Shown here one piece after another: positions 3,768 to 24,367 of a stretch of 47,754 nucleotides of DNA. How positions within the stretch are numbered: the stretch's first letter is position 1; the number at the start of each line of letters is the position of its first letter. The DNA lies in the NCBI RefSeq assembly GCF_030406325.1, contig NZ_JAUEQY010000052.1, forward strand, positions 1 through 47,754, in the 5' to 3' direction. Below the pieces are notes generated by a model. That model saw only the letters and a program-made list of their open reading frames with translations. It was not told the origin of the DNA and did not search any database. Source of the stretch: Actinomadura sp. DC4 (GTDB lineage: Bacteria; Actinomycetota; Actinomycetes; Streptosporangiales; Streptosporangiaceae). The position numbers were made by a program, and so were the translations under genes.

Positions 3768-3773
3768 TAAGGT
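3768..3773 (+). promoter_or_regulatory. Leaderless -10 box of the epimerase gene
   Basis: TAAGGT lies 7 bases before the GTG at 3781, the spacing expected when transcription begins at the start codon. This favours 3781 over the in-frame GTG at 3772, which lies inside or next to the box. No clear -35 is seen. Confidence 0.5.
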
Positions 3774-3780
3774 GCGCTCC

Positions 3781-5957: not shown

Positions 5958-5963
5958 TAGTGT
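5958..5963 (+). promoter_or_regulatory. Leaderless -10 box of the 242-aa protein gene
   Basis: TAGTGT starts directly after the GT4 stop codon and ends 7 bases before the ATG at 5971, inside the only AT-rich patch of this block. The downstream genes can therefore be transcribed independently of the epimerase and first GT4 genes, probably as a leaderless mRNA. No convincing -35. Confidence 0.45.
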
Positions 5964-5970
5964 CCGCCGT

Positions 5971-6699: not shown

Positions 6700-7040
6700 A
6701 CCCCTGCGGAGCGACCACGGGATTCTTCGTCCTCGGCCGCTGCGGCCGGCAGTCGGTGACGGTCTGCCGGTGCGGCCGGGCGCTGTGCGCCGAGCACGTC
6801 GACCCGCAGGGCCTGTGCCCGGAGTGCTCAGGCGCCCAGGGCTACGGAGATCCGTACCGGCCCGGCTGGGCGCGCGCCTTCCGGCGCTCCTACTGGCGGC
6901 GCAGCTCGGACTACTACCACGACTCCGACCAGTACTACTCATACGACACCTACGACCGTGGCGGGTTCGACCCGGGCGACGGCTTCGACATCGGCGGCGA
7001 CGTGGGTGACTCGGGCGACGGCGGCTGGACCGACAGTTGA
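6696..7040 (+). CDS. Cys-rich zinc-finger-like protein with Tyr/Asp-rich tail
   Basis: A 114-residue protein with two distinct parts. Residues 1-46 hold seven cysteines and a histidine (C4, C16, C24, C26, C31, H34, C41, C44), ending in CPEC, a spacing that suggests one or two structural zinc sites of cross-brace type. Residues 60-114 are low-complexity and rich in Tyr, Asp, Arg and Gly (SSDYYHDSDQYYSYD), probably disordered. The GTG start overlaps the upstream stop, and the stop overlaps the next GT4 start, so it is translated as part of the operon. The function is unknown; a partner or scaffold role for the neighbouring 242-aa protein is a guess. Confidence 0.7.
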   Translation: MNPCGATTGFFVLGRCGRQSVTVCRCGRALCAEHVDPQGLCPECSGAQGYGDPYRPGWARAFRRSYWRRSSDYYHDSDQYYSYDTYDRGGFDPGDGFDIGGDVGDSGDGGWTDS

Positions 7041-8156: not shown

Positions 8157-9011
8157 ATGATCGTCTGCTACGCCAACGGCGGCGGCCTGGGCCACCTGAC
8201 CCGCATCCGCGCGTACCTGCACACCGTGGCGCCGGGCCGGCCGGCGACGATCCTGACCGGTTCCCCGTTCGCCGCCGACCCGCGCGTCACCGGCGGCCAC
8301 CCGGTCCGGTCGGCGCCGGGCGGGCTCGGCCGCGACGGCCTGACCCGATGGCTCGCCGCGGCCCTCGCCGAGCTGAACCCCGCCGAGCTGGTCGTGGACG
8401 CCTTCCCGGCCGGTCTGTCCGGCGAGCTGACCGCGCGCGTCATCCCGGCCGGCACGCGGATCGTGCACCTGGCCCGCCTGCTGCGCTGGGACGCCTACCG
8501 GCCGCTGCTGCCGCCCGAACCGCCCGTCTTCTCCGAGACCTGGCTGGTGGAACCCGTGACCGCCGGGCACTCGGCGTACCTCCGGGCGGTCTCGGGCACG
8601 GCCGGCCCGCTGGAGCTGGCCGAACCGCCCTCTGAGAGCCTGGCCGTGGACGGCTGGCTGATCGTGCACTCCGGCCCCGAGGCGGAGATCGCCGAACTGG
8701 TGGAGTACGCGCGGGAGACGGCCGCGCTGGAGGGCGTACGGCCCCGGCTCACGCTGGTGGCGCCGTCCCGTCCGGAGGGGCTGCCGCCGGGTGTCGAACA
8801 CCGCGACGTCTACCCCGCCTGGCCGCTGTTCGCCTCCGCCGAGCGGATCATCACCGCGGCCGGCTGCAATGTCGTCCGCCAGCTCGCCCGGTGGCCGGAC
8901 CGGCACCGCATGATGCCGTTCCCGCGTCGCTTCGACGATCAGTTCACCCGCGCCGCCCGCGTACGCGACCCCGCCTCGACGGGGAACGATGAGATGGAGG
9001 AGGTGCCGTGA
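8157..9011 (+). CDS. MurG-like GT-B glycosyltransferase
   Basis: A 284-residue protein beginning MIVCYANGGGLGHLTR, the GGxGH loop at the N-terminus of MurG/UDP-glycosyltransferase-like enzymes. It is shorter than MurG (about 360 residues) and the C-terminal donor domain is minimal, with the segment FASAERIITAAGCNVVRQLA near residue 225 standing for the donor site. A reduced acceptor loop or a substrate-binding relative is possible. The frame is open further upstream, but the ATG at 8157 is the first start past the preceding gene and gives the conserved N-terminus. It overlaps the CoA-transferase gene by 4 bases. Confidence 0.78.
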   Translation: MIVCYANGGGLGHLTRIRAYLHTVAPGRPATILTGSPFAADPRVTGGHPVRSAPGGLGRDGLTRWLAAALAELNPAELVVDAFPAGLSGELTARVIPAGTRIVHLARLLRWDAYRPLLPPEPPVFSETWLVEPVTAGHSAYLRAVSGTAGPLELAEPPSESLAVDGWLIVHSGPEAEIAELVEYARETAALEGVRPRLTLVAPSRPEGLPPGVEHRDVYPAWPLFASAERIITAAGCNVVRQLARWPDRHRMMPFPRRFDDQFTRAARVRDPASTGNDEMEEVP

Positions 9012-10291
9012 CCGGGATCGACCCCGACCGGCCGGGGCGGGCGGCCGACGTGCTGGATCTCGTCCCCGCCGGGGCGGACCTGATCGTCCCGGTGCACCAC
9101 GGCGAGCCGCACACCGTGATGGACGCCCTGGAGGCCGGCGCCGGCCGGCTCAGCGGCGTACGGGTGCACCAGATGGACCCCGTACGGGAGCGGGCCTACA
9201 TCCGGGGTGAGTTCCCCGGCCGGCTCGAACACGTCGGCTACTTCCTCGGCCCCGGCTCGCGCCGCGCGTACTGGAACGGGACCTGCGACCTCGTGCCCGC
9301 GCACTTCAGCGAGGTCCCGCGGCTGCTGCGCGAGACGACCGGCCTCGACCTGGTGCTCGCGTCGGCCAGTCCGCCCGACCGGCACGGCTACTTCAGCCTC
9401 GGCACCAACGCCGACTACGTGGCCTCGTTCATCGGAAACGTGCCGTTCTTCCTGGAGGCCAACGCCCAGATGCCGCGCACCTCGGGGCAGAACCGGCTGC
9501 ACGTCAGCCAGGTCACCGGGTGGTGCGAGGCCGACTACCCGCTGGACGAGACGGTCGCGCGCCCACCGGACGAACGGGACGAGCGGATAGCCGCGTTCGT
9601 CGCCGAACGCGTACCGGACGGAGCCTGCCTGCAGGTCGGCGTGGGCCGGATCCCGAACGCCCTGCTCGGCGCGCTGCGCGACCACCGCGACCTCGGCGTG
9701 CACACCGAGGCGATGTCGGACGGCCTCATGGACCTGGTCGTACGCGGCGCGCTCACCGGCGCGCGCAAGCACCAGCGGCCGAACGAGCACGTCGCGACGT
9801 TCTGCGTGGGCACCCGCCGGTTCTTCGACTGGCTCGATGACAACAGCGCGGTGTCGCTGCTGCCCGTCGAGTGGGTCAACAACCCCCGCGTCATCGCCCG
9901 CGAGCCGCGGATGGTCTCCATCAACGCGACCAGCGAGGTCGACCTCATGGGGCAGGCGGCGAGCGAGACCATCGCGGGCCGCTACTGGTCCGGCTCCGGA
10001 GGCCAGACCGACTTCGCCCGCGGCGCGATGTACTCACCCGGCGGCATGGCGTTCCTGGTGACCCACGCGACCACCCACGACGGGGTCAGCCGGATCACGC
10101 TCCAGCTGACCCCGGGCAGCCCGGTCACCACGCTCAAGAACACCGTCGACCACGTGGTGACCGAGTACGGCGTCGCCGAACTGCGGGGGCAGAGCCTGGC
10201 CCGCCGGGCCGAGGCGCTGATCGCGATCGCCCACCCGGACCACCGCGACCGCCTGCGGCACGACGCGCGCGAGGCCGGCCTGCTGCGCTGA
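9008..10291 (+). CDS. Acetyl-CoA hydrolase / 4-hydroxybutyrate CoA-transferase family protein
   Basis: A 427-residue class I CoA-transferase. Family features include the central HTEAMSDGLMDL segment, whose glutamate (E234) is positioned as the catalytic residue forming the acyl-CoA anhydride, and a downstream GSGGQTDFARGA loop expected to bind CoA. It would move CoA between a short acyl-CoA and a carboxylate, or hydrolyse the thioester. Acetate, succinate and 4-hydroxybutyrate are all possible acceptors. The GTG start overlaps the preceding glycosyltransferase stop by 4 bases, an unexpected partnership, because no acyl-CoA enzyme is otherwise present in the block. Confidence 0.88.
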   Translation: MTGIDPDRPGRAADVLDLVPAGADLIVPVHHGEPHTVMDALEAGAGRLSGVRVHQMDPVRERAYIRGEFPGRLEHVGYFLGPGSRRAYWNGTCDLVPAHFSEVPRLLRETTGLDLVLASASPPDRHGYFSLGTNADYVASFIGNVPFFLEANAQMPRTSGQNRLHVSQVTGWCEADYPLDETVARPPDERDERIAAFVAERVPDGACLQVGVGRIPNALLGALRDHRDLGVHTEAMSDGLMDLVVRGALTGARKHQRPNEHVATFCVGTRRFFDWLDDNSAVSLLPVEWVNNPRVIAREPRMVSINATSEVDLMGQAASETIAGRYWSGSGGQTDFARGAMYSPGGMAFLVTHATTHDGVSRITLQLTPGSPVTTLKNTVDHVVTEYGVAELRGQSLARRAEALIAIAHPDHRDRLRHDAREAGLLR

Positions 10292-10306: not shown

Positions 10307-11300
10307 ATGGCGAACCTCGACGTTGCCGCACGCCTGGCCGCCCGCCCGCGCGTACGGCTGGCCACCCTGCCGACGCCCCTTCATCCGGCCCGCCGGTTCT
10401 CCGCCTCGATCGGCGCCGACGTGTGGCTCAAGCGCGACGACCTGACCGGGGTCGCGCTGGGCGGCAACAAGATCCGGAAACTGGAGTTCCTGCTGGGCGA
10501 GGCCCGGGATTTCGGTGCGGACTGCCTGGTGACGGTGGGTGCGGCCCAGTCGAACCACGCTCGTACGGTGGCGGCCGGTGCCGCGATGAGCGGCCTGGCG
10601 TGCCATCTGGTGCTCGGCGGCGCCCGCCCGCCCGCGCCGACCGGCAACGTCCTGCTGGACTCGCTGCTGGGCGCGGAGCTGCACTTCACGGGGGTGGACG
10701 CCTGGGAGGAGCTGGAGGCGGCGGCCGAGGAACTGCGCGCCACGCTGGTGAAGCGGGGCCACCGTCCGTACGTGATGCCGGTGGGCGGCTCGACCGCGAC
10801 GGGCGCCCTCGGTTTCGTCGCGGCGTACGTGGAACTGCTCGAACAGCTGTCGTCGGCGGGGGTGTCCCCGGGGGCCATCGTGCACGCGTCGGCGTCCGGG
10901 GGGAACCCAGGCGGGCCTGCACGCGGCCCAGCAGCTGCTGTTCCCGGACGGCGGCGGCCCCGCCGTGGCCGGCGTGGTGGTCTCGGACACCCCGCCGAGG
11001 GTCGCGGGACTCGCCGGCGAGGTGGCGGAGCTGCTCGGAGGGTCGGTGGCCGCACCGCCGCTGTTCGTGGAGGGCTTCCGCGGCGCGGCGTACGGCGTCT
11101 CCACGGAAGGCGGAGAGGCGGCCCTGAAGTCCCTGCTCCGCACCGAGGGCGTGCTGACCGACCCGGTCTACACCGCGAAGGCCCTGCACGCGGTGGTCGA
11201 ACGCGGCGCCGAACTCGCCGGCGGCGGCCCGCTGGTCTTCTGGCACACCGGCGGCGTCCCGTCGGTCTTCTCGGGCGAACACGAACTGGTGAGCTGGTAG
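10307..11300 (+). pseudogene. ACC deaminase / D-cysteine desulfhydrase homologue, frameshifted
   Basis: A PLP-dependent fold-type II enzyme in two frames. Frame one covers codons 1-199 with GGNKIRKLEFL (PLP lysine K55) and QSNHART. After SASGG the frame reads a different, Arg/Pro-rich sequence. The continuation (AGLHAAQQLLFPDGG through to GEHELVSW) is one frame over, ending at 11300. Removing one A from the AA at 10904-10905 restores SASGGTQAGLHAA, the expected glycine-rich phosphate loop, and a 330-residue protein of normal family length. Either a recent one-base insertion inactivates the gene or this is a sequencing error beside a run of six Gs. An intact product would deaminate 1-aminocyclopropane-1-carboxylate or release H2S from D-cysteine. 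Confidence 0.85.
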
Positions 11301-11950: not shown

Positions 11951-11979
11951 TTGACGGGCCGGGATTTTGGATCCAAAAT
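11951..11979 (+). promoter_or_regulatory. Promoter with GntR/VanR-type operator for the 12-23 kb operon
   Basis: TTGACG (11951-11956) and CAAAAT (11974-11979) are spaced by 17 bases, a good vegetative-type promoter. A perfect 16-bp palindrome, ATTTTGGATCCAAAAT (11964-11979), covers half the spacer and the whole -10 box, an ideal position for repression. The core TTGGATCCAA is also the centre of the ATTGGATCCAAT operator known for VanR, a GntR/FCD regulator. The gene at the far end of this operon encodes a GntR/FCD protein, the obvious candidate binder. The predicted transcript start near 11986 leaves a leader of about 31 bases containing GAGGAG. Confidence 0.65.
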
Positions 11980-12016: not shown

Positions 12017-13249
12017 GTGGCACCCTCGTCCGCCTACTCGTTTCTCAGTCATCTGGAGTGCTCTCGCACCGGCGAGCGGTACGACGCCGACGTCCTCCAA
12101 GGGGTCTCCGCCGAAGGCGCGCCCCTGCTCGCCCGCTACGACCTCGACCGCGTACGCGAGACCGTCACCCGTGAGGACATCGCCGCTCGCGCGCCCACCC
12201 TCTGGCGTTACCACGAGGTCCTCCCCGTCCGGGGCGAGGACCACGTCGTCACCCTCGGCGAAGGCATGACGCCCCTCCTCCCGATGCCCGCCTACGGCCG
12301 CCGCGCCGGCATCGAGCGGCTCCTCATGAAGGACGAGGGCCTCGTCCCCACCGGCACCTTCAAGGCCCGCGGCGCCGCGGTCGGCGTCTCGCGCGCCGCC
12401 GAGCTAGGGGTCAAGGGCGTCGCCATGCCGACCAACGGCAACGCCGGGGCCGCCTGGGCGCTCTACGCCGCGCGCGCCGGGATGGAGTCGCTCATCGCGA
12501 TGCCCGAGGACGCTCCACGGATCACCATGGCCGAGTGCCAGGTCGCGGGCGCCGAGCTCTACCGGGTCGACGGGCTCATCGGCGACGCCGGCAAGCTCGT
12601 GAACGCCGCGACCAGGGAACGCGCCGGCTACCAGGAGGTCTCCACCCTCAAGGAGCCGTACCGGCTCGAGGGCAAGAAGACCATGGGTTATGAGATCGCC
12701 GAGCAGCTCGGCTGGCGCATGCCCGACGTCATCCTCTACCCGACCGGCGGCGGCGTCGGCATCATCGGCATTCACAAGGCCCTGCGGGAGATGCTCGAGC
12801 TCGGCTGGGTCGACGGCGAGCTGCCCCGCCTCGTCGCGGTGCAGGCGACCGGCTGCGCGCCGATCGTGGAGGCGTTCGAGAACGGGGCGCGGGAGAGCAC
12901 GCCGTTCCCCGGCGCGCGTACGGTCGCGTTCGGGATCACCGTGCCCAAGGCGCTCGGCGACTTCCTGGTCCTGGACGCGGTGTACGCGACCGGCGGCACC
13001 GCCATCGCCGTCACCGACGAGGACCTCCTGAAGGCCCAGGCCGAGCTCGCCGCGCTGGAGGGCGCCTTCATCTGCCCCGAGGGCGCCGCCTGCTTCGCCG
13101 CGCTCGGGCCGCTGCGCGAGTCCGGGCACATCACGGCGGGCGACGAGGTCGTCGTCCTCAACACCGGCACGGGCGTGAAGTACCCCGAGACCGTACGCGT
13201 CGACGCGCCGCTGCTCGCCAAGGACGGTCAGATTCCGGGACGGGGGTGA
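12017..13249 (+). CDS. thrC: Threonine synthase (or threonine-synthase-like PLP lyase)
   Basis: A 410-residue PLP enzyme of fold type II. The N-terminal SFLSHLECSRTGERY segment and the PLP-lysine motif PTGTFKARGAA (K116) are typical of threonine synthases, as is the phosphate-binding PTGGGVGIIGI region. ThrC converts O-phosphohomoserine to threonine. The GTG at 12017 is chosen because GAGGAGA precedes it; the frame is open further upstream. It heads a ten-gene run and overlaps the binding-protein gene by 4 bases. Its position with import and hydrolase genes, away from hom/thrB, suggests a second copy with a specialised or catabolic role (for example release of ammonia or phosphate from an imported amino compound), which is inference. 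Confidence 0.85.
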   Translation: MAPSSAYSFLSHLECSRTGERYDADVLQGVSAEGAPLLARYDLDRVRETVTREDIAARAPTLWRYHEVLPVRGEDHVVTLGEGMTPLLPMPAYGRRAGIERLLMKDEGLVPTGTFKARGAAVGVSRAAELGVKGVAMPTNGNAGAAWALYAARAGMESLIAMPEDAPRITMAECQVAGAELYRVDGLIGDAGKLVNAATRERAGYQEVSTLKEPYRLEGKKTMGYEIAEQLGWRMPDVILYPTGGGVGIIGIHKALREMLELGWVDGELPRLVAVQATGCAPIVEAFENGARESTPFPGARTVAFGITVPKALGDFLVLDAVYATGGTAIAVTDEDLLKAQAELAALEGAFICPEGAACFAALGPLRESGHITAGDEVVVLNTGTGVKYPETVRVDAPLLAKDGQIPGRG

Positions 13250-14778
13250 GAGAATTGGATCTGATCCGCCGTACCGTCTTCTCCGCCCTGACCGCGGCCG
13301 CCTGCCTGAGCGGCGCGGCGTGCGGCATCCGCCCGGCCACCGCCGACCGCGACGCCGGCACGCTCGTCATCGACACCGCGAACTACCCCTCCACGCTCGA
13401 CCCGGGCAAGCAGTACGACGCCGACACCTACGCGGTGTACCGCAACATCTTCGACCAGCTCCTGCGCCGGGACCCGCGTACGCAGGCGCTCAAGCCGTGG
13501 ATCGCCACCTCGTGGAGGCAGACGGACGCCACGACCTGGCGGTTCGCCATCCGCCCCGGCGTGAGGTTCAGCGACGGCAGCCCGCTCACCGCGAGCGACG
13601 CGGCCTTCAGCATCAACCGGATCCTGGACAAGAAGTTCGCCAGCCAGCAGTTCGCCAACTTCTCGATGATCAGCAAGGCCACCACGGACGGCGCCGACCT
13701 CGTCGTGCACACCGCGCAGCCGGCGCCGACGCTGCTGACCTACCTGACCACGCTGTCCGTGGTGCCGGAGCGCTACGTGCGCAAGGTCGGCGACGAGAAG
13801 TTCGCCGCCCACCCGATCGGCTCGGGCCCGTACGTGTTCGGCGAGGCCACCGCCGGCTCGCAGGTGGCGCTGAAGGCCAACCCGCTGTGGTGGGGTCCGC
13901 GGACGAGCATACGGGCCGCGGTGTTCCGCGCGGTGCCGAACGTGGCCGGCCGCGTGGTCGACCTGCAGTCCCGCAAGGCCGACCTGGCCACCACGCTCAC
14001 CCCGGACGCCGCCGACCAGATCGAACGCGACCCCCGGCTCGCCGTCCTGTCCACGCCCACCGAGCGGGTCGCCTACCTCGCCTTCAACACGATCAAGGGC
14101 GGACCGGCCACCGACCCCCGCGTACGCCGCGCCATCGCCGCCGCGATCGACTACGGTGCGCTGATCAAGAACCTCCAGCGCGGCTACGCCAGGCCGGTCA
14201 ACTCCCTGCTCACCCCGCTGGCCTTCGGCTACGACAAGGCGCTGCCGGACGACCGGTACGACCCCGCCACCGCCCGGCGGCTGATCGCCGAGGCGGGCGC
14301 CCGGGGCAGGACGGTCGTGATGGACACCTCCCCGTCCTTCAACCCGCAGATCGTCCAGGCGATCCAGGCCGACCTGGCCGCCGTCGGCCTCAAGGTGGAC
14401 ATCCGCAGCACCGACCAGCCGACGTACCTCAAGAAGGTGCAGGACCCCGGGCACAACTGGGGCTCGCTGCGGTTCGGCCGCTGGTCCTGCTCGTGCCTGG
14501 ACGCCGACGGGGTGATCTACCCGCTCTTCCACACCGGCGGGATCTGGAGCTCTTACAGCGACGCCGGCTTCGACCGGCTCGTCGAGCAGGCCCGGCGGGT
14601 GATCGACCCGAAGCGGCGGACCACTCTCTATGACCAGGCGTTCCAGACGCTGGCCCGCGACCTGCCCGGGCTCGGCCTGTTCCAGGACTACGCCATCTAC
14701 GGCGCGAACTCCCGGGTCCGCTGGACCCCGGACGCGCAGGAGAGCTTCTACCTCGACACGATGAAGGTGCGCCGATGA
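13246..14778 (+). CDS. Opp/Dpp-type ABC transporter substrate-binding lipoprotein
   Basis: A 510-residue SBP_bac_5 family protein. The N-terminus has a twin-arginine-like RR, a hydrophobic stretch and cysteine-containing LSGAAC (C26), consistent with export and possible lipidation, although the lipobox lacks the usual leucine at -3. The mature part begins with TLVIDTANYPSTLDPGKQYD and includes WRFAIRPGVRFSDGSPLTASD, a family signature. It binds peptides, opines or similar solutes outside the membrane and delivers them to the two permeases that follow. The GTG start overlaps thrC by 4 bases; TTG at 13255 is an alternative start. Confidence 0.92.
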   Translation: MRELDLIRRTVFSALTAAACLSGAACGIRPATADRDAGTLVIDTANYPSTLDPGKQYDADTYAVYRNIFDQLLRRDPRTQALKPWIATSWRQTDATTWRFAIRPGVRFSDGSPLTASDAAFSINRILDKKFASQQFANFSMISKATTDGADLVVHTAQPAPTLLTYLTTLSVVPERYVRKVGDEKFAAHPIGSGPYVFGEATAGSQVALKANPLWWGPRTSIRAAVFRAVPNVAGRVVDLQSRKADLATTLTPDAADQIERDPRLAVLSTPTERVAYLAFNTIKGGPATDPRVRRAIAAAIDYGALIKNLQRGYARPVNSLLTPLAFGYDKALPDDRYDPATARRLIAEAGARGRTVVMDTSPSFNPQIVQAIQADLAAVGLKVDIRSTDQPTYLKKVQDPGHNWGSLRFGRWSCSCLDADGVIYPLFHTGGIWSSYSDAGFDRLVEQARRVIDPKRRTTLYDQAFQTLARDLPGLGLFQDYAIYGANSRVRWTPDAQESFYLDTMKVRR

Positions 14779-15749
14779 CCGCCGTGCTCCCACGGAGGCG
14801 CCTCGCCGCCCTCCCCGCGACGCCGCGTTACCTCGCCGGACGGATCGGGCAGGCGCTGCTCGCGCTGTTCGGCGTGGTCACGATCGTGTTCTTCGCGCTG
14901 CGCCTGTCCGGCGACCCGGCGCGGCTGCTCGTGCCCGAGGGCGCGACCGCCGCCGACATCGCGCGGGTACGCGCCCGGCTCGGCCTGGACGACTCCCTCT
15001 GGCACCAGTACACGACCTTCCTCGGGCACGCCGTCCGTGGCGACCTGGGCTACTCCTACGTCCAGAACCGCCCGGCCACCGACCTGCTCGCCGAACGCCT
15101 CCCGTACACCGCGAACCTCGCGGTCGCCGCGCTGGTCCTGTCGCTGCTCTTCGGCGTCACGGTCGGCGCGATCACCGCGCTCCGGCGCGGCCGGTGGCAG
15201 GAACGCGTGCTGATGCCGATCGTGCTCGCCGGGCAGGCGATGCCGGCGTTCTGGACCGGCCTGCTGCTCGTCCTGCTGTTCTCGGTCGGCCTGCGCTGGC
15301 TGCCCTCCACCGGGTACGACGGCCCGCTGTCGCTGCTGCTGCCCAGCGTCACGCTCGCCTCGCTGTCGGCCGCCGCGATCGCCCGGGTGACCCGGGGCGC
15401 GATGCTGGAGCAGCTCGGCCAGGACTACGTGCGCACCGCGCGGGCCAAGGGCGCCGGGACCTGGCGGCTCGTCACCCGGCACCTCGCGCGCAACACCGCG
15501 ATCCCGGTGCTCACCGTCGCCGCGCTGGAGCTGGCCAACCTCCTCGGCGGCGCGGTGGTCACCGAGGTGATCTTCGCCTGGCCGGGGCTCGGCCAGCTCA
15601 CCGTGCAGTCGGTGGCCGCGCGCGACTTCCCCGTCGTACAGGCGATCGTCCTGCTCGCCTCGGCCGTGTACGTCGTGGTCAACCTCGCGACCGACCTGCT
15701 GTACGGCGTCATCGACCCGCGCGTGTCCAGCGGAGGAGACCCCGCATGA
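14775..15749 (+). CDS. Opp/Dpp-type ABC permease, DppB-like
   Basis: A 324-residue six-helix BPD_transp_1 permease. The first helix (LAGRIGQALLALFGVVTIVFFALRL) is followed by the long periplasmic-side loop GDPARLLVPEGATAADIARVRARLGLDD typical of DppB/OppB. The ATPase-contact EAA-like loop is DYVRTARAKGAGTWRLVTRHLARN. It pairs with the next permease to form the pore. ATG overlaps the binding-protein stop by 4 bases. Confidence 0.93.
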   Translation: MTAVLPRRRLAALPATPRYLAGRIGQALLALFGVVTIVFFALRLSGDPARLLVPEGATAADIARVRARLGLDDSLWHQYTTFLGHAVRGDLGYSYVQNRPATDLLAERLPYTANLAVAALVLSLLFGVTVGAITALRRGRWQERVLMPIVLAGQAMPAFWTGLLLVLLFSVGLRWLPSTGYDGPLSLLLPSVTLASLSAAAIARVTRGAMLEQLGQDYVRTARAKGAGTWRLVTRHLARNTAIPVLTVAALELANLLGGAVVTEVIFAWPGLGQLTVQSVAARDFPVVQAIVLLASAVYVVVNLATDLLYGVIDPRVSSGGDPA

Positions 15750-16591
15750 AACGCCTCACCGTTCCCCTCGTGGTGGTCGGCCTCTACCTCGCGGTGGCGC
15801 TCCTCGCGCCGCTGCTCGCGCCGCATGATCCGAACGCCGTCTCCCTCGCCCAGCGGCTGCTGCCGCCCCAGGCGCACCACCTCATGGGCACCGACGCGCT
15901 CGGCCGCGACGTGCTGTCCCGCACGATGTACGGCACCCGGGTGTCGCTGCTCGTCGCCGCGGCGGCGGTCGTGGCGGCCGGCGTCGCCGGCGTGGCCCTC
16001 GGGATGATCGCGGGCTGGCGTGGCGGCTGGCTCGGCGCGGTCATCATGCGGGTCGTCGACAGCGTGCTGTCGGTGCCGTTCTTCCTGCTGGCCATCCTGG
16101 CCGTCGCGGTGCTCGGGCCCAGCCTGGTCAACGTCGTGCTCTGCCTGGCGCTGGTGCGCTGGCCGAGGTACGCGCGGGTGGCCTACTCCACGACGCTGCA
16201 GACCCGCGGCCGCGGTTTCGTCCGCGCCGCGACGGCGACGGGCGCGCCGGGGCGGTGGATCGTGGTGCGCCACGTCCTTCCCGAGGTGCTGCCGGTGGCG
16301 ATCGTGGTGGGCACGCTGGAGTTCGGGTTGATGGTGGTCTACGAGGCGTCGCTGTCCTTCCTGGGGCTGGGAATTCAGCCGCCGACCGCGTCCTGGGGCT
16401 CGATCCTGTCCGACGGCCAGCAGTACATCGCCACCGCCTGGTGGCTGGCCACCTTCCCCGGCCTGGCCCTGTTCGTGCTGGTCCTGGCAGTGAACCTGCT
16501 CGGCGACGGTGCGCGCGACCGCCTCGACCCGGCCAAGCGCGCCGCCGTGACACGCCGCCGCCGGGTACGGACCGTGGAGGTGACGGCATGA
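15746..16591 (+). CDS. Opp/Dpp-type ABC permease, DppC-like
   Basis: A 281-residue permease of the DppC/OppC subgroup. It carries the diagnostic HLMGTDALGRDVLSRTMYGTRVSL segment after helix 1 and the EAA-like loop GRGFVRAATATGAPGRWIVVRHVLPE. The C-terminal ASLSFLGLGIQPPTASWGSIL is also highly typical. The reading frame is open far upstream, but the ATG at 15746 overlaps the previous stop by 4 bases and gives the family start. It completes the membrane domain of the importer. Confidence 0.93.
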   Translation: MKRLTVPLVVVGLYLAVALLAPLLAPHDPNAVSLAQRLLPPQAHHLMGTDALGRDVLSRTMYGTRVSLLVAAAAVVAAGVAGVALGMIAGWRGGWLGAVIMRVVDSVLSVPFFLLAILAVAVLGPSLVNVVLCLALVRWPRYARVAYSTTLQTRGRGFVRAATATGAPGRWIVVRHVLPEVLPVAIVVGTLEFGLMVVYEASLSFLGLGIQPPTASWGSILSDGQQYIATAWWLATFPGLALFVLVLAVNLLGDGARDRLDPAKRAAVTRRRRVRTVEVTA

Positions 16592-17367
16592 GCGTCGACT
16601 ACGGAGGGGAGTTCGCGGGCCGGCGGGTGCTCATCACCGGTGCGGCCGGGCTGATCGGGCGCTGGACCGCCGAGGCGTTCCACGCCCAAGGCGCCGAGCT
16701 GCTGCTGTCCGACGGCCGCGCCGAACCCCTCGCCGAGGTCGCGGCGAGCCTCGGCGCGCACGCCGCCGTCGCGGACCTGAGCACCGGGGACGGCGTGGCG
16801 GGCCTGCTCGCCGCCCTGGACGAGCGCTGGCCGACCGCCGACATCCTGGTCAACAACGCCGGGATCTACCCCCGTACGCCGCTGGCGGCCACGGACCGCG
16901 CCACCGTCGAGCGGATTCTCGACGTGAACGTGATCGCGCCGTACCAGCTCGCCCAGCACGTGATCGCCACGATGACCCGTACGGGCGTGCGCGGCTGCGT
17001 GGTCAACATCGGCTCCGGCGCGGCCAGGCGCACGACACGCACCGGCGGCGTCTACGCGGCGAGCAAGGCCGCCCTGGAGACGCTCACCCGGTCGCTCGCC
17101 CTGGAGGCGGGCGAGGCGGGCATCCGCGTCAACACCGTCGGGCCGGGTTTCGCTCCGGGCAGCGAGGTCAGCGAGCTGGACGCCGGGCACGTCGCCAAGA
17201 TGCGCGCGGCGATCCCGCTCGGCCGTACCTCCGGCCCGGGCGACGCGCCCGCCGCCATCCTGTGGCTGTGCTCCGGCGCGGCCTCCTTCGTCACCGGCAC
17301 CACGCTCGACGTCGACGGTGGCCGCACCGCCGGCGACTTCGCCTCGACCGACGGGAGCGCGAGATGA
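16588..17367 (+). CDS. Short-chain dehydrogenase/reductase
   Basis: A classical SDR of 259 residues. The cofactor motif TGAAGLIG is at residues 17-24, NNAG follows near residue 90, the catalytic serine is in NIGSGAARR, and YAASK supplies the active-site tyrosine and lysine. Near residue 40 there is an Asp (LLLSDGRAE), which favours NAD over NADP. It would oxidise or reduce an alcohol or ketone in the substrate handled by this operon. The ATG overlaps the permease stop and the stop overlaps the next ATG, so it is firmly within the translational chain. Confidence 0.9.
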
Positions 17368-18209
17368 CCTACCCCTGGCCGGGCGGCACGCGAGCCGCCG
17401 TGTGCCTCACGATCGACTTCGACGGTGAGTCGCCGTACCTCTGGCGCAGCAGGGAGACGCGCGGGCCGGCCGTCGGCGAGCTCGAACAGCGCAGGTACGG
17501 CCCACGGCGCGGCATCGAGAACCTCCTGGCCATGACGGACGGACTCGGCCTGCGGACCACGGTGTTCGTCCCGGGCTGGATCGCCGAGGAGTACCCCGCG
17601 CAGGTCGCCGCGGCCCACGAGCGCGGGCACGAGCTGGCGCTGCACGGCTGGTGCCACGAGCCGCCGACCGGCCTGACCGGCGACGAACTGCACGACACCC
17701 TCGACCGGGCGGCCCGTACGCTCGCCGGCGTCAGCGGCGCACGCCCGGTCGGCTACCGCTCGCCGAGCTGGGACATGACCGCGGGCGTCTTCCCGGTCCT
17801 GCGGTCGCTCGGCATCGGCTACGACAGCTCGCTGATGGGCGACGACCGGCCCTACGAGGTCGACGGCGTCGTGGAGATCCCGGTCGACTGGTCCACCGAC
17901 GACGCGCCGTACTACCGCTACGTCGGCGGCGACCCGCGCCCGCCGACGCCGACCGGCCCGATCCTCGACGCCTGGACGCGGGAGATCGCCGCCGCCAAGG
18001 CGCACGGCACGCTCTGCATGCTCACCGTCCACCCCTGGCTGTCCGGCCGCCCCGCCCGCGTCGCGGTCCTCGAGGAGCTCCTCGCGCCGGTCGTGGCCGA
18101 CCCCGAGCTGTGCACCCCGACCGTACGGGAGCTGGCCGAGCACCACCGGGCCCAGGCCGGCGGCCGCACGGTCTCCCTCGACGCGCTGGGCAGGCCGGCC
18201 CATGACTGA
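17364..18209 (+). CDS. Polysaccharide-deacetylase-fold hydrolase (cytosolic)
   Basis: A 281-residue NodB-fold carbohydrate esterase 4 relative with no signal peptide. The metal/catalytic motif is LTIDFDGES near residue 15, followed by [12 protein letters not shown] with the two metal-ligand histidines and [12 protein letters not shown]. This pattern resembles the cytosolic PuuE/HpPgdA-like branch, which includes allantoinases and cyclic imidases as well as deacetylases. Because it is intracellular and next to an importer and an acylase, hydrolysis of an imide or amide on a small molecule is more likely than deacetylation of cell-wall polymer (inference). ATG 17364 overlaps the SDR stop by 4 bases and its stop overlaps the ATPase start by 8. 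Confidence 0.85.
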
Positions 18210-19158
18210 GTTCCTGCGCATCAGCGACCTGTGGGTCGACTTCGGCGAGGGGCGCGAGGCCGTACGCGGCGTCGACCTGACCGCCGACCGCGGCGAGACG
18301 GTCGCGCTCGTGGGGGAGTCCGGCTGCGGCAAGAGCCTCACCGCGCTCGCGCTGCTCGGCCTGCTGCCCGGCGGCGCGAACGCCACCGGCACGGCGACGC
18401 TGGACGGCACCGAGCTGATCGGCCTGGACGAGCGCGCGCTGCGGCGCGTCCGCGGCTCCCGCGCCGCGATGATCTTCCAGGACCCGATGAGCTCGCTCAA
18501 CCCGACCACGCGGGTCGGCGCGCAGATCGCCGAGGTGCTCGCGATCCACACGCGGACGCGCCGCTCCGCGCGCCTCCGCCGGGCGGTCGAGCTGATGGAG
18601 TCGGTGGGCATCCCCGACGCGGAGGCACGTGCCGGGCAGATGCCGCACCAGCTGTCCGGCGGCATGCGGCAGCGGGTGATGATCTCGATGGCGCTGGCCG
18701 GGCGGCCGGACCTGCTGATCGCCGACGAGCCGACGACCGCGCTCGACGTGACGGTGCAGGCGCAGGTGCTCGCGCTGCTGCGCGAGCGCTCCCGCGACAC
18801 GGTGCTGCTGTTCATCACGCACGACATGGGCGTCGTGGCCGAGATCGCCGACCGCGTGGCGGTGATGTACGCGGGCAAGGTCGTCGAGACCGGTCCCGTC
18901 GCCGCCGTGCTCGACGCGCCACGGCATCCGTACACGGCCGCGCTGCTGCGGTCGGTGCCCGACCCCGACCGCCCGGCCGCCGGCGAGCTGCCGACCATCC
19001 CCGGCCAGGTGCCCGCGGTCGGCGAGCATGTCGAGGGCTGCCCGTTCCGGCCGCGGTGCGACCGCGCGACGGACGCGTGCCGGACCATGCCGGAGCTGAC
19101 CCCCGCCGGCGCCGGTTCCGTCGCCTGCCACCATCCCGTCACGGAGGGAGCCTCATGA
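18202..19158 (+). CDS. Opp/Dpp-type ABC transporter ATPase, DppD-like
   Basis: A 318-residue nucleotide-binding subunit. Walker A is GESGCGKS (residues 38-45), the Q-loop is [12 protein letters not shown], the signature is LSGGM, Walker B is [12 protein letters not shown], and the switch histidine is in FITHD. The C-terminal oligopeptide-transporter extension has [14 protein letters not shown], the Cys cluster typical of DppD/OppD proteins. It works as a heterodimer with the next ATPase on the cytosolic face of the importer. Confidence 0.94.
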
Positions 19159-20123
19159 CCGAAGACCTCGTCGTGGCCGAAGGGCTGGTCAAGCGCTATC
19201 CCGTACGCGGGCGGGGCCTGCTGCCCGCCGTGGACGGCGTCGGGCTGCGCATCGAGCGGGGCACGACGCTCGCCCTCGTGGGGGAGTCCGGCTGCGGCAA
19301 GTCCACCACCGGACGCCTGCTGCTCGCGCTCGAACGCCCCGACGAGGGCACCGTCAGCGTGGCGGGCCGGAAGGTGCACGAGCTGGGCCGGCGCGAGCTG
19401 CGGGCGCTGCGCCGCACGATGCAGCCGGTCTTCCAGGACCCGTACGACTCGCTCAACGGCCGGATGACCGTCGAGCGGATCGTCGCCGAGCCGCTGCGGG
19501 TGCACCACGCCGACGGCGACCGGGCCGCCCGCGTGCGCGAGCTGCTGGAGACGGTGACGCTCACCCCGGACCTGGCGGGCCGGTACCCGCACGAGCTGTC
19601 CGGCGGGCAGCGCCAGCGGGTGGCGATCGCGCGGGCCATCGCGCTGGACCCGGCCTTCGTGGTCTGCGACGAGCCGGTGTCCGCGCTGGACGTGTCGGTG
19701 CAGGCGCAGGTGGTCAACCTGCTGCGGCGGCTGCAGGACGAGCGCGGGATCACGTACCTGTTCATCAGCCACGACCTGGCCCTGGTCCGCCACCTGGCCC
19801 GGCGGGTCGCGGTCATGTACCTCGGCCGGATCGTCGAGGAGGGCGCGGCCGGCGAGCTCTTCGCCGACCCGCGTCACCCGTACACGCGGCTGCTGCTCGC
19901 CGCCGCCCCGCGCCCGCGCGTTCGCGAGCGGCCCGCGGCGGTCACCGCGGCCGGTGAACCGCCGAGCGTCCTGGGCGGGCGTACGGGCTGCGCGTTCGCC
20001 CCGCGCTGCCCGCTGGCCACCGACCGGTGCCGCGCGGAGGACCCGGTGCTGCGGACGCTGCCCGGCACGGACCGGAAGGCCGCCTGTCACTACGCCGAGG
20101 CGGCAGGGGCGGGCGCCGCGTGA
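19155..20123 (+). CDS. Opp/Dpp-type ABC transporter ATPase, DppF-like
   Basis: A 322-residue ATPase. Walker A GESGCGKS lies at residues 43-50, the signature is LSGGQ, Walker B is [11 protein letters not shown], and the switch region is LFISHD. The C-terminal Cys motif ([14 protein letters not shown]) is again present. The frame is open far upstream; the ATG at 19155 overlaps the partner gene stop by 4 bases and gives the normal length. With it the importer is complete: binding protein, two permeases and two ATPases. Confidence 0.94.
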
Positions 20124-22309
20124 GGCTGCCGCCGGGACTGTCGATCACGCGGGACGAGTACGGCGTCCCGTCCGTCGACGCGGACACCGAGACGCTCGCC
20201 TGGTTCGGGCTCGGCTGGGCGGCGGCCGAGGACCGGCTGTGGCAGCTGGAGTACGACCGGCGGCGCGCGGGGGGCCGGTGGGCCGAGGTGGCCGGGGCCG
20301 TGGCGCTGCCGGCCGACCGGCTGGCCCGGCGGCTCCGGCTGGCCGACGCCGCCGAGCGCGACCTGGCCGCGATGGACCCGGACACGGCCGGGACCTTCGA
20401 GAGCTACGCGGACGGGGTGAACGCCCAGGTCCGCTCGGCCGGGCCGCCGCCGGAGCACGAGGCGGCCGAAATCGGCTGGCAGGAGTGGACGCCGCTGGAC
20501 TCGGTGCTCGCGTTCAAGATCCGGCATGTCCTGATGGGGGTCTGGCAGTACAAGATCGCCCGCGCGGTGCTGCGGGCACGGTTCGGCGACGACGCGGCGG
20601 ACGCGCTCGACCCGCGCCCGCTGCCGGGGATGCGGGTGACGGTGCCGCCGCTGGGCCGGGTCCCGGACACGGCGCTGCTCGCACAGGCGCGCGCGGACGT
20701 CGCGGAGGCCGCCGGGCACCTCGGCTTCCTGGCCGAGGCCGAGGGCGGCTCCAACGCGTGGGTGCTCGGCCCGGGCCGTACGGCGACGGGGCGGCCGCTG
20801 CTGGTCAACGACTCCCACCGCGCGCTCGACGCGCCCAACACCTACTGGCAGGCGCACCTGCGCTGCCCGGAGTTCGCCGTCTCGGGGGCCACGTTCCCCG
20901 GCGTGCCCGGCTTCCCGCATTTCGGGCACAACGGGCGGGTGGGCTGGGCGATCACCAACGCGGCCGGCGACGCGCAGGATCTCTACGTCGAGCACTTCCG
21001 CGGCGGAGGCACGGAGGTGCGGACGGCCGGCGGCTGGTCGCCGGTCGCCCCGCGCGCCGAGCGTATCGCCGTACGAGACGGGCCGGAGCACGTCGAGCTC
21101 TGCTGGGCCACGCCGAACGGCCCGGTCGTGCACGGCGACCCGGCCGGCGGGGAGGCCCTCGCGCTGCGCTGGACCGCGACGGACCGCCCGTGCGCGCAGT
21201 TCGGCGTGCTCCGCCGCATGCTGGCCGCCCGCGACGTCCGGGCCCTGCTCGACGGCCAGGACGGCTGGGTCGACCCGCTGAACAACCTGGTCGCCGCCGA
21301 CGTCGAGGGGCACATCGGCTACGTGCTGCGCGGCGAGTTGCCCGCGCGCGAGAGCCTGGCGGCGGCCCAGGTGCCGGTGCCCGGCTGGGAGCGCCGCCAC
21401 GCCTGGCGCGGGCGGGTGCCGTTCACGGCGATGCCACGCGTGGAGGACCCGGCCGAGGGTGTCATCGTGACCGCGAACAACACGGTGACCGCGGCCGAGT
21501 ATCCGTTCGTCTCGTATTCGATGAACGACTGCTACCGGGCGGAGCGGATCCACGAGCTCGCGGCCTCCGCCGGCGCGGCCGGGTTCGCGGACATGGTCGC
21601 CTGGCAGGGCGACACGGTGTCGGTGGCGGCCCGCCGGTGGGGTTCGCTGCTCGCGGGCCGTGGCCCGTACACCGGTGCAGCCGAGCGGGCCCGTACGGCG
21701 CTCGCCGCGGGTGGCGGTGACCTGACGGCCGAGAGTACGGTCGGCCACGTGCATGCCTGCTTCCGCCGGGCGGTGGCGCGGCGTGTGCTCGACGCCTCGG
21801 TCGGCCCCGAGACACGATCGTGGCTGCTGGACTGCGGGCTGCCCGGCGTGCCGGTGCTGCTGCGGCGCTGGTTCGCGGCACTCACCTGGCCCCGCGACGA
21901 CGGCGCGTGGCCGGCCGCCGCGCTCGGCGACGACCTGCTGGCCTCGGCGCTGGAGGCGGCCTGGCACGAGGCCGGGTCCCGCCCGTGGGGCGAGGTGCAC
22001 CGTACGGCCGCGCGCCACCCGCTGCACCCGGTGGCCGGTCCGGTGTTCGACCCGCCGCCGGCCGGCATCGGCGGGGACAACGAGACGATCCAGAACGGGG
22101 CCTACGGCTGGCGCGAGGGCACGCCCTTCGCCATCACGAACCTGTCGGTGTACCGGCAGGTGCTGGACCTGTCCGACCTGAACGCGTCGGGCTGGGTGAT
22201 CCCGGGCGGCGCCTCCGGGCGGCCCGGCGACCCGCACGGCTCCGACCAGCTCGACGCCTGGCGGCGGCACCGGCTGGTCCCGATGCGGCCGGCGTGGGGG
22301 AGCCCGTGA
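20120..22309 (+). CDS. Penicillin acylase family Ntn hydrolase, apparently cytosolic
   Basis: A 729-residue member of the penicillin/cephalosporin/acyl-homoserine-lactone acylase family. The family start motif ([13 protein letters not shown]) lies at residues 9-21, with no signal peptide before it, although most family members are exported. The autocatalytic processing site is EGGSNAW, making S211 the new N-terminal nucleophile of the beta chain. Later motifs include [13 protein letters not shown], a TANNTVT oxyanion-type asparagine and GDNETIQNG. It hydrolyses an N-acyl amide bond, probably inside the cell on the compound brought in by the importer. GTG 20120 overlaps the ATPase stop by 4 bases. 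Confidence 0.88.
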
Positions 22310-23070
22310 CCGAGGAGCTGAACAGCCTCGTACGCTCCGCGTACTCGGCGGTCCGCGAGGCCGTTCTGGAGCGGCGGCTGCTGCCCGGCGAACGGGTGAC
22401 CGTACGGCCCTTCGCCGAGCGGCTCGGCATCTCGCCGACCCCGGTCAAGGCCGCGCTCGCCATCCTCGAACGCGAGGGCTTCCTCGTCGCGCGCAAGCAC
22501 GCGGGGTACTTCGTCGCCGCGTTAACGGCCGCAGACATGCGCGACATCTACGAGCTGCGCTCCGCGATCGACGCGCTCGCCGCCCGCGACGTCGCGCGGA
22601 CCCGGCACCCTGAGCTGCTGGCCCGGCTGGGCGAGCTGCTGGAGGGCCAGCGGGCGGCGCTGGCGGCCGGCGACGTGGAGACGTACGGGGACCTGGACCG
22701 GGAGTTCCACGCGCTCATCTGGCACGGCTCGGCCAACCGCCGCCTCACCGCGATCGCCGACCTGCTGAGCGCCCAGCTGCGCCTGGGCCACAACCTGACC
22801 ACGGCCGTACCCGGCCGCCCGCAGGCGGGCCTGGAGGAGCACGGCGAGATCATGGACGCGCTGCTGTCCGGCGACACGTCGGCCGCCGAACACGCGACCC
22901 GCCGCCACGTGGCCCAGGTCATCCGCGCCCTGGAGAAGGTCCTGCCCGAGCAGGGAGGCCGACCGTCAGCGGGTGGCGGCCTCGGTGGTGAGGTAGAGCG
23001 CGAAGCGCAGGTCCAGGTGGGTGACGGCCAGCAGCCGGGCCACGCGCATGCTCGGGGCGGCCAGCCGTAG
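22306..23070 (+). CDS. GntR-family regulator, FCD subfamily
   Basis: A 254-residue regulator. Residues 5-70 form a winged helix with the GntR pattern LLPGERVTVRPFAERLGISPTPVKAALAILEREGFL. Residues 75-215 match an FCD ligand domain, including RSAIDALAARDVA, FHALIWHGSANRR and the metal/ligand histidines EEHGEIMDAL and RRHVAQVI. It probably controls the operon it terminates via the palindrome at 11964-11979. Codon 73 is a rare TTA. The last 35-40 residues (after KVLPEQ) are Gly/Gln-rich and encoded antisense to the STAS gene, suggesting the ancestral stop was lost. GTG 22306 overlaps the acylase stop by 4 bases. Confidence 0.88.
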   Translation: MTEELNSLVRSAYSAVREAVLERRLLPGERVTVRPFAERLGISPTPVKAALAILEREGFLVARKHAGYFVAALTAADMRDIYELRSAIDALAARDVARTRHPELLARLGELLEGQRAALAAGDVETYGDLDREFHALIWHGSANRRLTAIADLLSAQLRLGHNLTTAVPGRPQAGLEEHGEIMDALLSGDTSAAEHATRRHVAQVIRALEKVLPEQGGRPSAGGGLGGEVEREAQVQVGDGQQPGHAHARGGQP

Positions 23071-23416: not shown

Positions 23417-24367
23417 TCAGTCCTCGGCGGCATGGACCTGTTCGGGTTCCTTGTCGGGACGCAGACCGCGCCAGCTGGGGTGGCGCAGGTGGCCGTCGCC
23501 GGTCCACTCGGCGAAGGCGACCTCACCGACCAGGTCCGGCTCGACCCAGTGCGCCGTACGGGCCACGGGCGCGGGCACCGTCGTGTCGAACGGATTGCCG
23601 TCTCGCCTCAGCGGGGCGAGGGTGGCCGCCAGGTCGCGCAGGATCGCGTCCGTGAAGCCCGTGCCGACGTTCCCGACATAACGCAGCCCATGGTCGTCGT
23701 ACACGCCCAGGACCAGGGAGCCGATCATGTCGGCGCGGCGGCCCTCGCCCGGTGTCCAGCCGGCCACGATCACCTCCTGGTGGCGGACGTTTTTGACCTT
23801 GATCCACGGTCCTCGGCGGCCGGGCAGGTAGCGCGAGGTCAGCGGCTTGCCGACGACCCCCTCGAGGCCCTGGTCGATGCTGGCCGCGAGGACCGCCGGC
23901 CCGCCGCCCCGCCACCACGGCGGCGTGTGCACCGGGTCGGAGGAGAGACCCAGCTCCTCCAGCGCCGCGCGCCGTTTCGGGTATGGCTCGCCCAGCAGCG
24001 ACTCCTCGCCCCGGCGGAGCAGGTCGAAGACGTAGTAGAGCACCGGCGCCGCCGTGACCAGCCGGTCGGACGGCCGCTGGACGTGCATCCGCGACTGCAG
24101 CAGCCCGAAGTCCGGCCGGCCGTCCCGCAGCGCGACGATCTCGCCGTCCAGGATCACCGGCTCGCCGAGCATGCCGCCGAGCGCGGCGAGCTCGGGGTAG
24201 GAGCGCGACATGTCCTTGTCGTTACGGGACATCAGCGTGACGCCGCCGTCCCGCACGTACGCGACGGCCCGTACGCCGTCCCACTTCAGCTCCCAGCCGT
24301 ACGCGTCGTCGTCGGCGGGCAGCCCGTGCCGCAGCACGGCCATCATGGGCCTGACCAGCTCACTCAT
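23417..24367 (-). CDS. ATP-dependent DNA ligase (LigC/LigD-ligase type)
   Basis: A 316-residue ATP-dependent ligase comprising the adenylation and OB domains. Motif I is ELKWDGVRA with the adenylated lysine K28. Also visible are LDGEIVAL (motif III), LEGVVGKPLTSRY (motif IV) and WIKVKN (motif V). Size and order match stand-alone LigC-like enzymes used in repair rather than replication. No Ku or polymerase/nuclease partner is nearby. It overlaps the MFS gene by 8 bases and is the last gene of an ArsR-MFS-ligase transcription unit, so its expression may follow that regulator. Confidence 0.92.
   Translation of the reverse strand: MSELVRPMMAVLRHGLPADDDAYGWELKWDGVRAVAYVRDGGVTLMSRNDKDMSRSYPELAALGGMLGEPVILDGEIVALRDGRPDFGLLQSRMHVQRPSDRLVTAAPVLYYVFDLLRRGEESLLGEPYPKRRAALEELGLSSDPVHTPPWWRGGGPAVLAASIDQGLEGVVGKPLTSRYLPGRRGPWIKVKNVRHQEVIVAGWTPGEGRRADMIGSLVLGVYDDHGLRYVGNVGTGFTDAILRDLAATLAPLRRDGNPFDTTVPAPVARTAHWVEPDLVGEVAFAEWTGDGHLRHPSWRGLRPDKEPEQVHAAED

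Follow-up and report, generated by a model that had tools for sequence, protein, structure and literature searches.

The window analyzed here, a 47,754-nucleotide stretch of DNA from Actinomadura sp. DC4 (contig NZ_JAUEQY010000052.1), carries a ten-gene operon at 12017-23070 that very probably encodes a single pathway taking up and degrading an amide-containing compound under the control of its own GntR regulator. Uptake and stepwise breakdown of an amide had been proposed in an earlier sequence-only reading of this DNA and is now well supported by the conservation of the operon, a probable operator of its own and a core shared across phyla. Among the substrates suggested in that reading (modified peptide, opine, N-acyl amino acid or antibiotic), the evidence favors none over the others. 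The genes encode, in order, a threonine synthase (ThrC)-like pyridoxal phosphate (PLP) enzyme, a family 5 solute-binding protein (SBP), two permeases, a short-chain dehydrogenase/reductase (SDR), a CE4 hydrolase (Polysacc_deac_1), OppD, OppF, a PF01804 acylase and a GntR/FCD regulator. The features of the operon and its promoter are:

11951-11979, plus strand: predicted sigma-70-type promoter with TTGACG (11951-11956), a 17-base spacer and CAAAAT (11974-11979)
11965-11978, no strand assigned: palindrome TTTTGGATCCAAAA, predicted GntR operator between TTGACG and the -10 box, overlapping the -10
12017-13249, plus strand: gene 1, ThrC-like PLP enzyme of 410 amino acids (PALP in Pfam; NF006050)
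13246-14778, plus strand: gene 2, family 5 SBP with an export-signal-like N-terminus as judged by eye (SBP_bac_5, 260.7 bits in Pfam)
14775-15749, plus strand: gene 3, Opp/Dpp-type permease (BPD_transp_1 and BPD_transp_1_N in Pfam)
15746-16591, plus strand: gene 4, Opp/Dpp-type permease (BPD_transp_1 and OppC_N in Pfam)
16588-17367, plus strand: gene 5, SDR (Pfam; multiple alignment)
17364-18209, plus strand: gene 6, CE4/NodB-fold hydrolase of the HpPgdA-like small-molecule group, with the metal triad D20, H94 and H98 kept
18202-19158, plus strand: gene 7, OppD-type ATPase (ABC_tran and oligo_HPY in Pfam)
19155-20123, plus strand: gene 8, OppF-type ATPase (ABC_tran and oligo_HPY in Pfam)
20120-22309, plus strand: gene 9, penicillin-amidase-family N-terminal nucleophile (Ntn) acylase, no signal peptide as judged by eye (PF01804)
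22306-23070, plus strand: gene 10, GntR/FCD regulator and probable operon repressor (GntR and FCD in Pfam; palindrome in the operon promoter)
13246-13249, 14775-14778, 15746-15749, 16588-16591, 17364-17367, 19155-19158, 20120-20123 and 22306-22309: 4-base overlaps
18202-18209: 8-base overlap of genes 6 and 7

The full ten-gene order is conserved in nine actinobacterial loci. These were identified by tblastn using all ten proteins and comprise three loci in the window's genus (the window, L036 and L037, the latter being the L031 locus), one in Actinomadura (Actinomadura darangshiensis, L034) and five in the Amycolatopsis group (an Amycolatopsis metagenome-assembled genome, L033, and L075-L078 from its genus group). 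The sequence-only reading was to be refuted by a set confined to this genome, and this refutation fails. The neighborhood search located the order in eight other genomes and it is therefore not due to chance. Four partial loci bring the actinobacterial total to 13. Genes 2-10 are present without an adjacent ThrC gene in Saccharopolyspora soli (L032) and in L039. A probable Streptomyces locus (L124) encodes GntR, ThrC, SBP, two permeases, SDR, CE4, OppD and OppF before the contig ends ahead of any acylase. In L038, an SBP fragment runs into the CE4 gene at 4803-5600, with the permeases and SDR missing, representing either a deletion or truncation of the operon copy or a misassembly. Within the surveyed groups occurrence is sporadic. 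CE4 matches at E<=1e-60 were found in three of 297 family genomes, all in the window's genus and including the window's own genome, and acylase matches at 1e-200 in 5/80, 1/22 and 1/65 genomes from the groups to which L033, L032 and L034, respectively, belong (starting genomes included). CE4 matches at 1e-70 occurred in one of 392 genomes of the probable Streptomyces group. Among eight regions from phylum-wide and genus-group CE4 matches, one contained the operon (L124); no importer-SDR-CE4 set was seen in L125-L131. This distribution of homologs suggests that the operon is an optional catabolic unit that has spread horizontally.

The operon promoter contains a conserved palindrome that is likely the operator of the operon's own GntR. 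Gene 10 scores 42.9 and 94.7 bits against the GntR and FCD models (cut-offs 27 and 24.3). With up to three mismatches allowed, a search of the window matched TTTTGGATCCAAAA at the promoter site alone, where 0.02 matches are expected. When the 10.67-Mb host assembly (98.3% complete) was searched with a 13-base version allowing one mismatch, only the promoter site (on both strands) and one other site with one mismatch were recovered, and the assembly holds no second perfect copy of TTTTGGATCCAAAA. The palindrome lies upstream of the operon in 11 of the 13 loci. The window, L034, L036 and L037 share the exact sequence, L033 and L075-L078 carry one mismatch, and two are present in L124 (core TTGGATCCAA) and in L032, where the site (AATTTGGATCCAAATT) lies about 300 bases ahead of the first gene. 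No palindrome within three mismatches was found in L038 or L039. The start of TTGACG lies 14 or 15 bases ahead of the palindrome in the window, in the eight relatives stacked with it and in L124. Based on this arrangement, we infer that gene 10 binds at TTTTGGATCCAAAA. The Caulobacter VanR operator has the sequence ATTGGATCCAAT; among the 12 papers listed by a literature search for ATTGGATCCAAT, no GntR paper contained it.

Related systems in Pseudomonadota indicate that importer, SDR and CE4 enzyme form the core. A CE4 search of a plasmid collection yielded 211 records, 20 of which, largely the highest-ranking ones and therefore a non-random sample, were inspected. In 11 of these 20 loci, genes for CE4, SDR and an Ntn amide hydrolase lie in one stretch, in L092 and L094 not all in a single run. 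The Ntn protein belongs to the gamma-glutamyltransferase (GGT) family in eight loci (L082-L085, L090, L091, L094 and L095), is isoaspartyl-peptidase-like in two (L097 and L102) and a penicillin acylase in one (L092). Pfam confirmed PF01019 for L084 and L082, PF01112 for L102 and PF01804 for L092; the other Ntn labels rest on annotation and, for the GGT set, also on alignment. SDR and CE4 alone are found in L081 and L093, an adjacent SDR is missing in four annotated loci (L096, L098, L100 and L103) and neither SDR nor Ntn matches were detected in three unannotated loci (L099, L101 and L104). Seven loci (L082, L083, L084, L085, L090, L091 and L095) display the order GntR-SBP-permease-permease-SDR-CE4-GGT-OppD-OppF, with that of L083 read across the record start and including a second SBP. 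Sequence identities of L082, L084 and L095 to the window are 40-41% for SBP, 52-55% for PermB, 54-58% for PermC, 45-46% for SDR, 42-43% for CE4 and 47-56% for the ATPases. Of their GntR proteins only that of L084 matched gene 10, at 27%. In a GGT search of the plasmids, the top 14 of 102 records (at least 54% identity) all possess an adjoining CE4 gene as judged by coordinates.

A binding-protein search (19 records) led to a Neorhizobium galegae locus (L132) encoding CE4 (36%), SBP (46%), SDR (45%), permeases, OppD, OppF and a PF01804-type acylase with 29% identity to gene 9. As in the window, the acylase occupies the last place among the enzyme and importer genes. By sequence comparison, rhizobia and their relatives thus encode an orthologous importer, SDR and CE4 enzyme. 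Their acylase slot is occupied either by a GGT-like protein or by a distant penicillin acylase and is consequently filled by at least two Ntn families. Which Ntn hydrolase is present varies, as do ThrC and GntR, and these three therefore fall outside the core. In L097, CE4, SDR and SBP are 40%, 34% and 26% identical to the window proteins, and the weak SDR and SBP matches mark the isoaspartyl-peptidase loci as looser kin.

Several plasmid and rhizobial loci place these genes in other company. Three Pseudomonadota operons (L083, L090 and L095) carry a RidA-family gene after OppF, suggesting an imine or enamine intermediate. In Rhizobium lusitanum (L133, 8045-11706), CE4, SBP and an M20-like hydrolase (by eye) are encoded side by side and no SDR was found at this locus; the M20-like protein would be another amide hydrolase associated with this kind of binding protein. 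CE4 relatives in L100 (2872-8902) and L103 are located beside MmgE/PrpD, in L100 also with an agmatinase and an amino acid importer, representing a different catabolic setting. On the marine plasmids L097 (5472-9746) and L102 (4457-8730), creatininase-family and ketopantoate-reductase-like genes accompany SDR, CE4 and isoaspartyl peptidase.

Gene models and junctions are consistent with a single transcriptional unit of the composition originally described. The ten open reading frames are all present on the plus strand at 12017-23070, and Pfam agrees with the identity assigned to each of them by the sequence-only reading. As calculated from gene coordinates, all nine junctions overlap, eight by 4 bases and one by 8 bases. 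The reported overlap at every junction is thus real, and the co-translation read from it is supported, short of proof. A third-position GC filter was passed by six of the ten genes (1, 2, 3, 6, 7 and 9), the other four appearing there only as longer frames extended upstream. Neither the acylase nor the CE4 enzyme has an N-terminal signal peptide as judged by eye and the description of the acylase as cytosolic therefore fits.

The SDR and CE4 enzymes retain their catalytic motifs. SDR residues N114, S143, Y156, K160 and D42 are invariant among 11 aligned sequences. In the CE4 enzyme, the metal triad as well as D18, R132 and H223 are invariant in alignments of both 14 and 38 sequences. Gene 6 shows the characteristics of the HpPgdA-like or NodB1.2 group, namely the Asp-His-His metal triad, catalytic Asp and His residues and the fold typical of the group, and its predicted structure groups with 3rxz, HpPgdA and PuuE, far above polysaccharide deacetylases. 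It falls below the PuuE allantoinase model TIGR03212 (48.0 versus 424.6 bits), with the metal triad present. Group, triad and predicted fold thus lend support to the earlier label of an imidase-like deacetylase. Four CE4 relatives contain in-frame stop codons, one or two TGA in L116, L117 and L122 (family f57) and TAG in L119, possibly representing degraded genes, sequencing errors or recoding.

Gene 9 encodes a penicillin-amidase-family acylase (PF01804, 542.6 bits versus a cut-off of 21.3). The predicted nucleophile is S211 in the motif GGSN, which aligns with residue 1 of the beta chain 4hsr_B; 4hsr, the glutaryl-7-aminocephalosporanic acid (GL-7-ACA) acylase, is also the best solved relative (beta chain, 306 bits). 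Four of 11 regions surrounding looser acylase relatives carry operon genes (L036, L037, L038 and L039). No operon genes were found in the other seven (L006 and L040-L045), of which L006 (4 kb) and L040 (8.4 kb) are too short to tell, and the operon is not present in the region of a Chloroflexia acylase relative (L035, 37%). Among the regions fetched, the operon occurs only beside acylases of about 58% identity or higher. Acylase P0054 (53%) and CE4 P0221 (51%) are both recorded with the longest contig 28560, and acylase P0066 (49%) and CE4 P0234 (50%) both with 329652. These pairs may represent linkage in more distant bacteria, and 58% is not necessarily a limit.

The ThrC-like gene is an actinobacterial addition outside the core. 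Gene 1 scores well above the cut-off of NF006050 (PRK08197, threonine synthase; 626.1 versus 303 bits) and misses canonical ThrC TIGR00260 (151.8 versus 167.1 bits). Its motifs TFKARG, TNGN and GGGVG correspond to SFKDRG, STGN and GNAGN in L051, L063 and L065, and its closest paralogs in the same genome share 35% and 37% identity. By these comparisons, gene 1 is distinct from the genome's housekeeping-type threonine synthase. The sequence-only reading had included ThrC in the set to be sought across actinobacteria, but ThrC does not belong to the core, as it does not adjoin the operon in two of the 13 actinobacterial loci (L032 and L039). It is also not annotated in the inspected Pseudomonadota operons and was not found in L132. 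S. soli (L032) encodes a ThrC relative at 54% elsewhere in its genome. No operon of this kind was found around the window genome's own ThrC paralog (L074) or at ThrC loci L072, L073 and L086-L088.

The importer is assigned by family and scores below the subtype models listed. No gene 2 paralog is present in the same genome at E<=1e-40. Gene 2 remains under the cut-off of all 11 listed Dpp, Gsi, Opp and Nik binding-protein models (best Opp5A_nikA, 159.1 versus 600 bits), and the nearest ATPase models among those listed are Opp2C (285.6 versus 300) and Opp2B (302.6 versus 350).

Based on these components we tentatively favor an imide relay, inferring the reaction order, imide chemistry, ThrC role, GntR action and substrate class. 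A small amide-containing compound would be imported by the family 5 SBP and its two-permease, two-ATPase transporter. The SDR would then oxidize an alcohol, most likely a carbinolamine (hydroxylactam) carbon, yielding an N-substituted cyclic imide that the zinc-type CE4 enzyme would open to a half-amide. The cytosolic Ntn acylase would hydrolyze the secondary amide of this half-amide, yielding an acid together with an amine or amino acid, and the ThrC-like PLP enzyme could strip a substituent or the amino group from an amino acid set free in this way. GntR would be released from TTTTGGATCCAAAA in the promoter by the imported compound or one of its products. This scheme is preferred because SDR and HpPgdA-like CE4 are constant and accompanied by an exchangeable amide hydrolase, by analogy with a fungal route. 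For Aspergillus nidulans, PMC9304392 describes formation of a cyclic imide by the SDR HxnW, ring opening by HxnM and cleavage of the resulting half-amide by the amidase HxnN. The HxnM domain is listed as CE4_HpPgdA_like in PMC8478523.

A number of observations weigh against the imide relay. The SDR is a member of a very large family and none of the 25 NCBIfam models listed for it (of 231) reached its cut-off. The acyl specificity of gene 9 is not fixed by sequence. Nine of the 20 inspected plasmid loci lack the full SDR-CE4-Ntn trio and the importer of the isoaspartyl-peptidase loci is not clearly orthologous, as seen in L097. The ThrC-like enzyme has no counterpart in the fungal route. Of the cyclic imide hydrolases HxnM and Pseudomonas putida AAY98498, the former is tied to gene 6 by its listed domain. 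HpPgdA, a nearer relative of gene 6 than PuuE, is described in PMC3084791 as inactive on allantoin and on all further compounds that its crystallographers assayed; according to this paper, an earlier crude test had shown it to act as a peptidoglycan deacetylase.

These HpPgdA results favor a different reading, a possible one though on the doubtful side, in which the CE4 enzyme acts inside the cell as an N-deacetylase or deformylase on a small N-acylated amine such as a conjugate of an amino sugar or amino acid. No imide would be formed, the SDR would oxidize a hydroxyl on the same molecule and the acylase would remove a second, larger acyl group. The metal triad of gene 6 is as in true deacetylases, the CE4 superfamily is named after deacetylation and family 5 SBPs are not restricted to peptides, with agrocinopine-binding AccA among the gene 2 matches. 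It is unlikely that the penicillin-acylase-family enzyme scavenges or detoxifies an acylated antibiotic or signal such as an N-acyl homoserine lactone (AHL), beta-lactam or lipopeptide. PF01804 does hold such acylases and the best solved relative is the GL-7-ACA acylase, but gene 9 is far under the PvdQ-type AHL acylase model NF051460 (29.5 versus 950 bits), no lactonase or beta-lactamase is found by Pfam among the ten genes, the acylase is cytosolic as judged by eye and a GGT-type enzyme replaces it in relatives. With family membership and the nearest solved relative as all its support, an AHL or antibiotic target was set aside. Recycling of muropeptides or cell-wall amides is very unlikely; CE4 enzymes and Opp importers do serve cell-wall metabolism in other bacteria, but by Pfam none of the ten genes encodes an amidase, glycosidase or ligase known from wall recycling, and the sporadic distribution (CE4 in three of 297 family genomes at E<=1e-60, own included) fits a housekeeping role poorly. 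Least probable of all is a pathway that imports gamma-glutamyl peptides or glutathione-like conjugates and cleaves them, with acylase and GGT-like relatives acting as gamma-glutamyl hydrolases: the GGT-family protein in the slot at eight inspected Pseudomonadota loci at first suggested a gamma-glutamyl or glutaryl group, but gene 9 belongs to another family than GGT, two GGT-like proteins scanned score 248.9 and 240.6 bits against TIGR00066 (357.85), and in all eight the gamma-glutamyl-binding residues are lost, with Trp at the Asp433 position (by alignment; L084 also against solved GGTs), Asn for Arg114 and Ala-Asn for Ser462-Ser463 in E. coli GGT numbering. The Asp433 numbering of GGT is also used in PMC8062742.

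Beyond the single operon, the imide relay would extend to a widespread and previously undescribed imide-scavenging module of Actinomycetota and Pseudomonadota. We consider this extension rather doubtful at present. It would consist of importer, SDR, CE4 imide hydrolase and exchangeable Ntn half-amide hydrolase, with the actinobacterial form adding a ThrC-derived lyase for the amino product. If correct, some enzymes of the penicillin/cephalosporin acylase and GGT-like types, and perhaps some isoaspartyl-peptidase-like ones, would naturally serve to cleave N-substituted half-amides, and the HpPgdA-like CE4 proteins of bacteria, which carry polysaccharide deacetylase annotations, would have a small-molecule job. 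Penicillin/cephalosporin-type acylases are industrial tools, and we know of no settled natural substrate for cephalosporin acylases, nor of natural substrates for the 4hsr and D-succinylase 7eby enzymes. The operon ties a penicillin/cephalosporin-type acylase to a conserved importer and probable operator, and in relatives its place goes to an unrelated Ntn hydrolase, indicating a possible everyday job for antibiotic-cutting enzymes, and the natural-substrate question becomes testable, as the SBP ligand and GntR inducer should reveal the compound.

Few of the genes flanking the operon recur across genera. Clustering of flanks placed a gene resembling aldo/keto reductases (by eye) at three operon loci from two groups, downstream and on the minus strand in L036 (15444-16451), L037 (14933-15922) and, further off, L078 (17263-18339), and an SDR upstream of the operon in L032 and L036; it placed neither in other loci. 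An acyl-CoA dehydrogenase-like gene (by eye) directly follows GntR on the same strand in L075 (15547-16722), L076 (2893-4068) and L077 (15861-17036) and could be a further pathway step; these three loci also share other flanks. In the window, the plus strand upstream of the operon encodes a small sugar cluster at 3772-8137 (an NAD-dependent epimerase and two glycosyltransferases), an Acetyl-CoA hydrolase/transferase family protein at 9008-10291 and a second PALP gene at 10307-11300 (D-cysteine desulfhydrase/ACC deaminase-like by eye) whose frame changes midway, representing a broken gene or a sequencing error. Downstream, an ATP-dependent DNA ligase with LigD-type domains (23420-24367, minus strand) is also found near the operon at the other two loci of the window's genus and thus probably represents local synteny.

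Every part of the operon belongs to a known family, and the combination was not described in the open PMC papers listed by the literature searches. The importer shares its build of a family 5 binding protein, two permeases and two ATPases with the Dpp, Opp and Nik peptide and nickel importers, but is below every NCBIfam importer cut-off among the models listed. Gene 9 resembles the 4hsr and 7eby enzymes, its closest solved relatives, in family (PF01804) and Ntn serine. It differs from them in belonging to a dedicated import operon and has Asn rather than His at beta-chain position 70 (counted by eye). PuuE allantoinase falls in one fold group with gene 6 and also acts on a small cyclic amide. 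It is described as lacking metal binding (PMC3084791, PMC10967932) and is metal-independent, whereas gene 6 keeps D20, H94 and H98. The VanR-type FCD/GntR regulator Atu1419 is reported to bind 10-bp palindromes overlapping the -10 box or located between -10 and -35 (PMC7797058), similar to the short palindrome at the operon promoter, with ATGTATACAT for Atu1419 in place of TTTTGGATCCAAAA. In the fungal hxn route the ring is derived from nicotinate, no importer of the operon's kind takes part and HxnN is FAAH-like, whereas the amide hydrolase of the operon is an Ntn enzyme. The hxn genes are described as clustered in many fungi (PMC9304392, PMC8478523), and the steps catalyzed by HxnW, HxnM and HxnN, from hydroxylactam to imide to half-amide to acid, match the SDR, CE4 enzyme and amide hydrolase of the operon at the family level.

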